Below the pieces are notes generated by a model, which saw only the letters and a program-made list of their open reading frames with translations, ran no database searches and had not been told where the DNA came from. Below are positions 27,385-30,076 of a stretch of 39,418 nucleotides of DNA, piece by piece. A program made the position numbers and the translations under genes. This DNA is from a bacterium. GTDB taxonomy: Bacteria > Patescibacteriota > Saccharimonadia > Saccharimonadales > JAGQNK01. How positions within the stretch are numbered: the stretch's first letter is position 1; every line of letters starts with the position of its first letter. The stretch spans positions 1-39,418 of the forward strand of contig JAKQHX010000048.1 of the NCBI GenBank assembly GCA_029557815.1. Direction: 5' to 3'.

Positions 27385-27469
27385 GCGGATGTGGTGGAAT
27401 TGGTAGACACGCATGCCTTAGGAGCATGTGCCGCAAGGCGTGAAGGTTCAAGTCCTTTCATCCGCACCA
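27385..27469 (+). tRNA. tRNA-Leu (anticodon UAG)
   Basis: An 85-nt tRNA with a long variable arm, as in leucine tRNAs. The acceptor stem GCGGATG pairs with CATCCGC. The anticodon stem CATGC/GCATG encloses CTTAGGA, giving anticodon TAG. The T-arm contains GGTTCAAGTCC. The CCA end is encoded. It would read CUA and, by wobble, other CUN codons. The -35 box of the histidine leader promoter begins three bases after its end. Confidence 0.95.
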
Positions 27470-27471
27470 TA

Positions 27472-27500
27472 TTGACAGATTGTGTATAATAGAGTATAAT
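27472..27500 (+). promoter_or_regulatory. Consensus promoter of the histidine leader/hisG unit
   Basis: TTGACA, 17 bp, TATAAT: both hexamers match consensus fully. A second TATAAT at 27485-27490 is too close to the -35 to use it. The predicted start near 27507 is two bases before the leader-peptide ATG. Confidence 0.9.
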
Positions 27501-27508
27501 ATCTATAT

Positions 27509-27571
27509 ATGTTCACGCAACCAAAGATTAACCAGCATCATCTACATATGCAGCCGGAGCGACGCGGTTAG
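27509..27571 (+). CDS. Histidine leader peptide (20 codons)
   Basis: A short reading frame of 20 codons, starting two bases after the predicted transcription start and ending with TAG at 27569-27571. Codons 10-13 are CAT CAT CTA CAT, giving His-His-Leu-His. It lies between a consensus promoter and a strong terminator, upstream of a histidine-biosynthesis gene. This is the layout of the classical his operon leader, which in enteric bacteria has seven consecutive His codons. Translation would begin leaderlessly. The frame is too short to prove coding by itself; the call rests on position and histidine content. Confidence 0.75.
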   Translation: MFTQPKINQHHLHMQPERRG

Positions 27572-27597
27572 TTTGCTATTGCTTTGCACAGTAGATA

Positions 27598-27621
27598 ACG
27601 CCGGGTTCGCCCGGCGTTTTT
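27598..27621 (+). terminator. Attenuator terminator of the histidine leader
   Basis: ACGCCGGG-TTCG-CCCGGCGT is a perfect 8-bp stem with a TTCG loop, followed by TTTTAT (the T-run begins with the last base of the stem). A competing pairing is possible: GCG(G)TTA at 27564-27570, at the end of the leader frame, can pair with TAACGC at 27596-27601 and break the base of the terminator. Confidence 0.88.
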
Positions 27622-27654
27622 ATATGTGATTTAAATTTAGAAGGAGAAGTAACA

Positions 27655-28594
27655 ATGGATTACATATCAGAAAGATACAGTCCAGAAACAATACTGAAGT
27701 CTGCGCAAAGGATAGCCCTTCCGGGTGGTGATGAAGGCGAATCTGTGCAAGGGTGGATTGAAGAAGCGGGGTGGGAATATCCGGTTTTTGAGCCAAAGGA
27801 GTGTCTTCACCGCGGCCGCTAATGGTAGAAGCTTCATCTTGTCCCGAGGAAAGGATATCCCTGGAGAGGTACTACGGGGCGAGGTCGATGCTGGCTTTTG
27901 CGGGGAAGATGTTTACTGCGAACAAGTCGGGAGAGGGCTCTGCAAATCACTCGGATTTATCGCGGTGCGCAGCATGAACTGTCGTCTCGTACTTGGCGCG
28001 TACGAAGACCAGGCGCTAGACCGGCCGCTGCGGGTCGCAACCTCCTTCCCGGCGTTGTCGCTGAAACTGCTCGCAGGGCAGGGTTACGAGGTAGCAAGCG
28101 TGCAAGAGTTTGGAGGTAAAGTAGAAGGCAAGCTCAAAAATGGATCGTATGATGCCATCGTTGACATTGTAAAAAGCGGTGAAACAGCAAGAGACAATGA
28201 CATTGTTGAAAAAGCAGTACTGCTAAGCGATCTCAGGGCTGGAATCGTGTTTCGCAAAGGACCGGTACGGACGGAAGAGGATTTGTTCGAGCCATGGCAG
28301 ATGCTCATGGCACTTCAGAAGATGCAGGAGCGCAAACGACAGCTTGAAGCAGGTGCACAGCCCGACGCCTCACGCAAGAATACGATGTTATTGCTGTCTG
28401 ATGAAAATAAGCTGGCAAAGGCAATCGGAGAAGAATCAGCAGAGCTGGTGCGGGCGTTGGTCCGCGGCGAAGGAGTCGTTGATGAGGCTGCCGACATGGT
28501 CTTTACGGCTTTGCTTGCTCCGATTCGCGATAAATCTTCCGGGCTCGCGGTACTAAATGAACTAATAAGGAGAAACCAAAAGCGTAATAAGTAG
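27655..28594 (+). CDS. hisG: ATP phosphoribosyltransferase (short-form HisG) fused to HisE, made by +1 frameshift
   Basis: HisG joins ATP and PRPP in the first step of histidine synthesis; HisE removes pyrophosphate from the product. The gene starts at ATG 27655 after AAGGAG. The first frame gives RIALPGGDEGESVQGWIEEA and stops at TAA 27820-27822 after 55 codons. The homology continues in the +1 frame (TAAANGRSFILSRGKDIPG) up to TAG 28592-28594. With the shift at CTT 27805-27807 the product has 312 residues and aligns without a gap to HisG. The PRPP-binding segment DAIVDIVKSGET is at about 166-177. HisE covers about 250-306, with GEESAEL and DEAAD. HisG lacks the C-terminal regulatory domain, and HisE is shorter than usual. 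The alternatives are a pseudogene or a one-base sequence error. Confidence 0.85.
27795..27811 (+). promoter_or_regulatory. Candidate programmed +1 frameshift site in hisG
   Basis: AAAGGAG TGT CTT CAC reads, in the initial frame, as part of Pro-Lys-Glu-Cys-Leu-His. A Shine-Dalgarno-like sequence ends three bases before CTT, exactly as in the prfB frameshift site. tRNA-Leu on CTT can slip one base to TTC. The A-site codon is histidine CAC instead of the UGA of prfB, so shortage of His-tRNA should favour slipping. Confidence 0.7.
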
Positions 28595-28633
28595 ATGCGG
28601 ACCCGACTGGCCTTGGAGTCACTACGTACAATG

Positions 28634-28664
28634 TATACCACAATAACAGATAATATGGTATAAT
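28634..28664 (+). promoter_or_regulatory. hisS promoter within an inverted repeat
   Basis: A perfect extended -10, TGGTATAAT (28656-28664), predicts a start near 28671. Its first seven bases are one arm of a perfect inverted repeat, TATACCA-N15-TGGTATA (28634-28662), which may be an operator. Confidence 0.55.
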
Positions 28665-28679
28665 AGTATTTGTAAGTGG

Positions 28680-28698
28680 CTCCGGGTACGGAGTTTTT
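28680..28698 (+). terminator. Hairpin with T-run in the hisS leader
   Basis: CTCCG-GGTA-CGGAG followed by TTTTT. It starts about nine bases after the predicted hisS transcription start. It could terminate hisG read-through or act as an early attenuator for hisS. Confidence 0.55.
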
Positions 28699-28747
28699 AT
28701 ATTTGTCCTCGGATACAGTACAATTACGGTTAAGGTAAATTACAACT

Positions 28748-30076
28748 ATGGCACTATCGACCCAACCATATAAAGGTTCACGGGATTTTTATCCCGAGGA
28801 CAAACGAATACAAAAATACATGTTTTCTACTATGCGTAAGGTAGTCGAGAAGTTCGGCTATGAAGAATACGATGCGCCGATACTCGAGCCTACAGAGCTT
28901 TTCGCGAGTAAAACAAGCGACGAAATCGTTAATGAGCAGACATACACGTTCAACGACCGTGGAGACCGCAGCGTCACGATAAGGACAGAGATGACCCCAA
29001 GTGTCAGTCGTATGGTGGCCGGCAAACGACAAGAATTGGCGTATCCTATCCGCTGGTACTCCATACCGAACATCTGGCGTTACGAGCGGCCGCAGCGAGG
29101 CCGGTTGCGTGAATTCTGGCAGCTGAATGTCGATATTTTTGGTGTCAGCGGCATAGAAGCCGATCACGAGGCTATTTTGGTTGCAGATAGTATCATGCGC
29201 GAGTTCAAGGCTAAACGCGACATGTACACCATCAAAATAAACAGCCGCCAGTTAATGAACACCCTGTTTGCGGACTATCTGCGCTTAAGTAATACGCAGT
29301 CGCACGCGATGGCGCAACTCATCGATCGTATGCACAAGATGGAGTACGCCGAATTCGTGGCGACACTCGATGCGCTTTTTCAGCCTAACCAGCGTGAGAA
29401 TGGCGAATCAGAACTGCTGCTCAATTTCCTGAGCCTCAAGACGGTAAATGACCTGCCAGGTGAGCTACGGGTACACCCATCGGTACTGGAGCTTCAGGTA
29501 CTGATGGATCTGTTGACCAAATCCGGCATCACTAATTTTGAATTTGATCCGACACTCATGCGCGGCTTTGAGTACTATTCGGACATCGTCTTCGAGGTGT
29601 TTGACACGCATCCAGAAAATAACCGGTCCATGTTCGGGGGAGGGCGTTACGACGGGCTGGTCGGGCTGTTCGGTGTAGAACCTGTGCCAACAGTAGGGTT
29701 TGGGATGGGCGATGTAACGCTGCAGAACTTTCTGGAGTCACACAAGTTGTTACCGGAACTACACCCGGAAACGGATGCATACGTTATTCTGATAGGCGAC
29801 GTGTACGAGCGCGCCCAACCGGTCTTTAGGAAATTCCGAGAACTAGGCGCCCGGTTGGCTGTAGATACCACGGGTCGCAAGCCGGACAAGCAGATAAAAA
29901 CCGCGGTTAAAAAAGGCATACATTACGCGATATTCATAGGTGAAAAAGAACTTGCTGACGAACAATACGTACTGAAGAACCTTGTTACAGGTTCTGACGA
30001 ACGTCATGGGGTAGAGCGCACAGTCAGTATCATCAAGGATTATCGCCAAAGCGGTTCGGTGGATGAGAGCGATTAA
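28748..30076 (+). CDS. hisS: Histidyl-tRNA synthetase
   Basis: Charges tRNA-His. The 442-residue class II enzyme has GSRDFYPED near the N-terminus, TIRTEMTPSVSRMV, motif 2 with RYERPQRGRLREFWQ, the histidine-binding segment MRGFEYYSDIVFE and GGGRYDGLVGLFG. A C-terminal HGTP anticodon-binding domain covers about 340-435. The motif-3 position reads GFGMGDVTL, whereas the E. coli enzyme has GLERL, so the usual motif-3 arginine is not where expected. Short-form HisG enzymes usually need HisZ, a HisS paralogue, and this gene follows a short-form hisG. The intact motif 2 and anticodon domain make HisS the better call. It overlaps the next gene by 14 bp. Confidence 0.9.
   Translation: MALSTQPYKGSRDFYPEDKRIQKYMFSTMRKVVEKFGYEEYDAPILEPTELFASKTSDEIVNEQTYTFNDRGDRSVTIRTEMTPSVSRMVAGKRQELAYPIRWYSIPNIWRYERPQRGRLREFWQLNVDIFGVSGIEADHEAILVADSIMREFKAKRDMYTIKINSRQLMNTLFADYLRLSNTQSHAMAQLIDRMHKMEYAEFVATLDALFQPNQRENGESELLLNFLSLKTVNDLPGELRVHPSVLELQVLMDLLTKSGITNFEFDPTLMRGFEYYSDIVFEVFDTHPENNRSMFGGGRYDGLVGLFGVEPVPTVGFGMGDVTLQNFLESHKLLPELHPETDAYVILIGDVYERAQPVFRKFRELGARLAVDTTGRKPDKQIKTAVKKGIHYAIFIGEKELADEQYVLKNLVTGSDERHGVERTVSIIKDYRQSGSVDESD

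Follow-up and report, generated by a model that had tools for sequence, protein, structure and literature searches.

Comparison of the histidine locus in one Saccharibacteria genome with its relatives indicates that hisG, fused here to hisE, is very probably expressed via a programmed +1 frameshift with a histidine codon as its sensor, combined with a histidine leader-peptide attenuator upstream. The window, the whole 39,418-nucleotide stretch that was analysed, belongs to a genome of 933 kb in 62 contigs (G000 in the comparisons); among named relatives with the gene, the closest is a Candidatus Saccharibacteria MAG (JAGQNK010000012.1). Of two histidine-responsive layers, the attenuator appears to come first and the frameshift second. 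The frameshift mechanism, put forward in an original prediction made from the window alone, is well supported by the sequence comparisons described below.

The layout of the locus is given in Table 1. The original prediction had placed the passage of HisG homology from the zero to the +1 frame at AAAGGAG-TGT-CTT-CAC, and all coordinates of this junction check, as does the 55-residue zero-frame peptide ending at TAA. The two halves join without loss, and the joined protein aligns fully with intact HisG of the same order. The assignment as hisG-hisE likewise stands, with Pfam HisG and PRA-PH (HisE) domains recognized both in the +1 frame and in the joined product. In the gap between hisGE and hisS (28595–28747), a TATAAT resembling a promoter element is accompanied by a short hairpin, CTCCGGGTACGGAG, with T5 after it. 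The sister species shares this arrangement, which may represent a second regulatory leader in front of hisS.

Table 1. Positions of features around hisG in the window
Feature	Position	Strand	Remark
tRNA-Leu(UAG)	27385..27469	+	context; just 5′ of leader
Promoter-like site: TTGACA 27472-27477, 17-nt spacer, TATAAT 27495-27500	27472..27500	+	read from sequence
Leader peptide ORF, MFTQPKINQHHLHMQPERRG and stop; three His codons, the last 24 nt before the stop	27509..27571	+	
Antiterminator strand, the end of the leader ORF including its stop codon; can pair with the terminator 5′ arm	27558..27571	+	
Intrinsic terminator of the His attenuator, AACGCCGGGTTCGCCCGGCGTTTTT	27597..27621	+	
Shine-Dalgarno AAGGAG of hisG	27641..27646	+	read from sequence
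Zero-frame ORF, 55 aa: HisG N-terminal part to Leu51, His, three codons, TAA 27820-27822	27655..27822	+	
Internal Shine-Dalgarno-like stimulator AAAGGAG, 3 nt (TGT 27802-27804) 5′ of the slippery codon	27795..27801	+	
Slippery site CTT_C (CTT 27805-27807); proposed tRNA-Leu(GAG) re-pairing CUU to UUC	27805..27808	+	
Proposed sensor (hungry) codon CAC, histidine, zero-frame A site	27808..27810	+	
+1-frame ORF: remaining HisG fused to HisE (PRA-PH)	27809..28594	+	Pfam HisG 1.8e-20, PRA-PH 1.1e-5
hisS, histidyl-tRNA synthetase	28748..30076	+	Pfam; neighbour order

Conservation of the frameshift cassette

The search covered 393 genomes of the order, supplemented by class and family searches, with the DNA read around each hisG. 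Frameshifted hisG occurs in 11 species, which the group codes of the genome handles assign to 10 genera and 7 families, and at all 11 loci an early zero-frame stop, 2–14 codons after the His codon, is paired with a functional protein that continues in the +1 frame. The slippery codon is CTT in nine species and GTT in two (G113 and G075), the next base is invariably C, and the zero-frame A-site codon is His throughout (CAC in seven, CAT in four). Specifically, the cassette reads AAAGGAGTGT-CTT-CAC in the window and identically in G001, GCGAGGTGT-CTT-CAC in G005, G014 and G446, GCGAGGTGT-CTT-CAT in G068, GGGGAGGTGT-CTT-CAC in G296, GAGAGGAGGTGT-CTT-CAC in G182, GGGAGGTCA-GTT-CAT in G113, AAGAGGTCG-GTT-CAT in G075 and GGAAGATCA-CTT-CAT in G119. 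The original prediction had asked whether related Saccharibacteria conserve the site or carry an uninterrupted hisG without the Shine–Dalgarno-like, CTT and His arrangement; it is the former that was found, with NTTC and the zero-frame His codon common to 11 species and Shine–Dalgarno-like pairing present in 10.

That pairing was calculated between the 14 nt 5′ of the slippery codon and the 3′ tail of 16S rRNA. Energies of –7.0 to –15.8 kcal/mol were obtained in 10 of the 11 species, compared to a background mean of –2.6, and the pairing is weak in G119 (–3.3 kcal/mol). AAAGGAG in the window pairs with the 16S 3′ end at –8.9 kcal/mol, within the top 2.7% of in-frame positions in these genes. 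The spacing of the cassette equals the Shine–Dalgarno spacing of prfB to within about one base.

The pattern GAGGTGTCTTCAY has 19 matches in the 393 genomes, five of which possess a nearby start and a long homologous +1 ORF; all five are hisG, and the remaining matches look like chance. NTT-CAY is absent at the homologous position in seven intact hisG read as DNA, which carry CTT CGT, CTA ACC, CTG AAA, TTA ATG and similar codons instead, and a plasmid search gave no match. On the hisG tree, 17 further rows were first counted as uninterrupted, one of which is G182; its reading as an intact hisG within the frameshift clade was rejected, as its DNA reveals the cassette (GAGAGGAGGTGT-CTT-CAC-CTC-GGC-TGA) further upstream, 5′ of the HisG domain in a stretch without HisG homology, while the usual site reads through. 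With the G182 cassette in this position, its presence cannot be put down to HisG coding. The G296 genome holds both an intact hisG and a second, frameshifted hisG, the latter located between TrpR-like and LOG-family-like genes (L116).

Both reading-frame halves are, as judged by sequence divergence, conserved under selection. Between G000 and G001 the zero-frame N-terminal part has a dN of 0.23 and a dS of 1.19, and the C-terminal part a dN of 0.27 with dS saturated. The zero-frame half carries the conserved N-terminal strand of HisG (IALPKG-type), and the +1 frames stay open over about 156–322 codons in the 11 assemblies, retaining the PRPP loop D-I-x-x-[ST]-G-x-T and, where HisE is present, its characteristic residues. 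Used as a profile, the joined product aligns with solved HisG structures through the join (best PDB match 1o63, E 3.9e-26). The product is either a HisG-HisE fusion or HisG alone, HisE being missing in G113, G075 and G446. At the HisE end of the G005 fusion (L005, 1336–2301, minus strand) there is an extra tail of about 45 residues.

The leader-peptide attenuator

A conserved histidine attenuator lies directly upstream of the frameshifted hisG in nine species. In G005, hisG sits at a contig end, and a matching leader is found at the end of another contig of that genome (L083); the frameshifted hisG of G296 has neither a His leader nor a hisS neighbour. The attenuator comprises a short ORF with His codons, beginning about 7 nt after a TATAAT-like box, followed by an intrinsic terminator, and TTGACA/TATAAT-like pairs occur at the same place in G001, G014 and G119. 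If transcription starts about 7 nt past TATAAT, the mRNA of the leader peptide would apparently be leaderless. The leader peptides (MFTQPKINQHHLHMQPERRG in the window, and MIYLTNQHHIHILPELIG, MFIRSNQHHVHTSPEPVG, MCVITNLHHLHILPERLG, MCEIINQLHLHIPPERLG, MVYNQNYHEHILPERIG, MINIKFTKTLTHILPGQLG and MLTKFTQHQSHISPEVV) contain 1–4 His codons, the last of which precedes the leader stop by exactly 24 nt in all seven complete leaders that were folded. Duplex prediction pairs the leader-stop region with the 5′ arm of the terminator in 8/8 leaders (–13.2 kcal/mol in the window, range –7.6 to –16.0). By the usual logic of attenuation, a ribosome stalled at the leader His codons would leave the antiterminator strand free, resulting in antitermination; a ribosome that reaches the leader stop would cover this strand, resulting in termination.

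A covariance model of the attenuator (R1) matches the window at 27515–27621 with 98.4 bits and detects the element in 63 of the 393 Saccharibacteria genomes. Its occurrence is independent of the frameshift: the genes downstream include hisS (alone in some genomes), hisG-hisD operons, hisI-hisS, and putative peptidase and deacylase genes. Among these we observed VanX-type dipeptidase-like (L091, L093 and L102), M20 peptidase (L081), aspartoacylase-like (L086, L095, L097 and L099) and hisI genes, and the set as a whole (L080–L104) looks like a histidine-scavenging regulon. In L087 (G011) and L104 (G040), HisI stands beside hisS under the attenuator, with no hisG there in G040; HisI is in these cases another single pathway enzyme retained with hisS. 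Rfam contains no match to the attenuator and returned only the tRNA, and a known riboswitch or T-box in the leader was accordingly rejected. The his leader of E. coli and Salmonella (Rfam His_leader) shares the leader peptide with His codons, the terminator, the antiterminator and the position before his genes. It differs in that the Saccharibacteria element has an apparently leaderless peptide and a two-strand antiterminator containing the stop codon of the leader, lacks an Rfam match, and also precedes hisS, hisI and peptidase genes.

Histidine as the proposed signal and alternative explanations

The zero-frame His residue is absent from the frameshifted product, yet its codon is kept in 11/11 species, although these species are related and hence do not constitute eleven independent draws. 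His accounts for 2.5% of codons in the neighbouring genes. The codon that follows His in the zero frame varies freely (R, L, G, L, R, C, R, Q, I, L, L). Exchange of CAC and CAT is synonymous in the zero frame and changes Thr to Ile or the reverse in the product, and at least three such swaps, counted by hand, are needed on the tree. Because of these swaps, and because the relocated G182 cassette lies outside HisG homology, selection seems to act on His itself. The genome encodes a single tRNA-His(GUG) for the two codons CAC and CAU, together with one tRNA-Leu(GAG), which is the slippage tRNA of prfB and is able to pair with UUC after a slip.

We infer from this conservation that the shift takes place, and that it would depend on the charging of tRNA-His. 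Translation would start at 27655 and proceed until Leu-tRNA occupies CUU in the P site while the A site awaits His-tRNA at CAC, with the internal Shine–Dalgarno-like sequence paired to the 16S rRNA tail and straining the complex as in prfB. With ample charged His-tRNA, CAC would be decoded and the ribosome would stop four codons on, releasing a dead 55-residue peptide. When charged His-tRNA is scarce, the peptidyl-tRNA would slip from CUU to UUC, such that ACC and the remaining HisG-HisE are read. As leader attenuation upstream would respond to the same signal, shortage of charged histidyl-tRNA would be registered in two layers. Several points weigh against this scheme: the Shine–Dalgarno-like pairing in G119 is weak, a slip on GTT (G113 and G075) is less favourable, the G296 gene has neither His leader nor hisS beside it, and CAY could be merely a slow codon without regulatory meaning.

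The position of hisS raises the matter of what the shift serves. It lies downstream of hisG in 10 of the 11 frameshifted loci, in G182 after a further 690 nt, and overlaps hisG in G075 and G113; hisS may therefore be a further output, by translational coupling or relief of polarity. A stronger version, in which the frameshift mainly serves hisS, would have up to about 800 nt left untranslated when no shift occurs, lowering hisS through polarity or lost coupling and so tying HisRS output to tRNA-His charging. This reading could hold alongside the main explanation, as one more output, and it draws strength from the neighbouring and overlapping genes and from the same attenuator preceding hisS alone in other genomes. 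However, hisG and hisS are 150 nt apart in the window, with a promoter-like sequence of its own in the gap, HisG itself is maintained by selection, and G296 has no adjacent hisS; as the principal purpose of the shift, hisS expression is thus unlikely.

Somewhat less probable still is a programmed +1 frameshift that is obligatory but constitutive, CAY acting as a slow codon with no sensing of histidine. High-efficiency Shine–Dalgarno-stimulated sites without a starvation signal exist, and the presence of only one tRNA-His gene would suit a slow codon. This account nevertheless leaves unexplained why His, with its C/T swaps, is found in 11/11 rather than any rare codon or a prfB-type stop, and in nine species the same gene is preceded by a His attenuator, a tenth having its leader on a separate contig. 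The site is not a generic habit of these genomes, because prfB, which carries a +1 frameshift in most bacteria, is apparently uninterrupted in the nine genomes checked (L066–L074). A leftover of a prfB-style habit was rejected on the same ground.

The strong Shine–Dalgarno sequence at the junction could alternatively start the second ORF as a separate protein, but this is very improbable: no ATG, GTG or TTG is conserved in the +1 frame at Shine–Dalgarno spacing, the zero-frame half has a conserved HisG N-terminal strand under selection, the alignment to PDB HisG profiles continues through the join, and NTTCAY is still kept in G182, where the cassette precedes the domain. An indel from sequencing or assembly, or a pseudogene in decay, might be expected of an orphan gene in the MAG of a reduced genome, and can be practically dismissed. 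The sister species (64% protein identity) reads GAG CCA AAG GAG TGT CTT CAC CTC GGT TAG with the same shift, and because nine further species share it, the shift is not a base-calling error; we rejected assembly error and pseudogene alike given 11 independent assemblies with open +1 frames, preserved PRPP-loop and HisE motifs, and a dN much lower than dS wherever dS can be used. Equally negligible is restoration of the frame by transcriptional slippage as in some insect endosymbionts; in an ant endosymbiont, poly(A) runs are reported to allow this in a histidine gene (PMC5009743), whereas a homopolymer run is present at the site in 0/11 species.

An orphan product and relation to known systems

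The original prediction described a histidine-sensing frameshift in a biosynthesis gene. The site and its His codon are indeed conserved, but "biosynthesis gene" is misleading. Among the frameshifted genomes other than G182 and G296, HisI was absent in 9/9 searched, and HisD and HisA/HisF were not found in 6/6; the same searches succeeded in controls and in G139, whose hisG is intact. HisG(E) is therefore an orphan outside a working histidine pathway, and its product cannot alone serve ordinary histidine synthesis, unless genes were missed in incomplete assemblies. It is homologous to short-form HisG/HisE and keeps the PRPP-loop and HisE motifs, but differs from that system in standing beside hisS without HisI, HisA/HisF and HisD.

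We would guess that the product is an orphan ATP phosphoribosyltransferase, joined in some species by a pyrophosphohydrolase, that drains ATP and PRPP into PR-AMP. Its purpose is the least certain part of the scheme. Our preferred guess is that the drain of ATP and PRPP acts as a brake or signal during histidine starvation. In Salmonella, derepressed early his enzymes combined with a late block drain ATP, and by analogy we would guess that an orphan HisG induced by histidine starvation acts as a brake. The full proposal is a natural His-codon frameshift sensor of tRNA charging, set atop a His attenuator, whose output is an orphan HisG(E) working as a starvation effector, either as a drain on ATP/PRPP or as an alarmone; we give it about as much credence as doubt.

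The closest known parallel is prfB, which likewise possesses a short zero-frame ORF, an internal Shine–Dalgarno sequence a few nt before CUU and a +1 slip of tRNA-Leu, with functional protein made only in the +1 frame. In prfB the level of the A-site decoding factor sets the efficiency, and its counterpart here would be charged tRNA-His. The A-site codon is, however, a His sense codon in 11/11 rather than UGA, and the product is HisG/HisE rather than a decoding factor. Because it lacks the UGA read by RF2 that defines the prfB family, the cassette is not a member, though it would work alike.

For decades, the second parallel, hungry-codon frameshifting, has been investigated as an error. With the system described by Gallant in E. 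coli the cassette shares the idea that amino-acid starvation at the A site promotes a +1 slip of the P-site tRNA; there, however, the effect is artificial or incidental, whereas the hisG site looks fixed and conserved. In a 2016 review, Atkins and co-workers noted that hungry-codon frameshifting could yield starvation-specific trans-frame proteins and that no natural examples were known (PMC5009743), and we found no later natural case in the open-access literature. If true, the hisG cassette would be the first natural hungry-codon switch. A conserved, relocatable cassette responsive to tRNA charging would add amino acids to the stop codons and polyamines that programmed frameshifting is known to sense. 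It also prompts one to ask why a reduced episymbiont would retain the ATP-consuming first step of a pathway, its later steps missing, under double histidine control.
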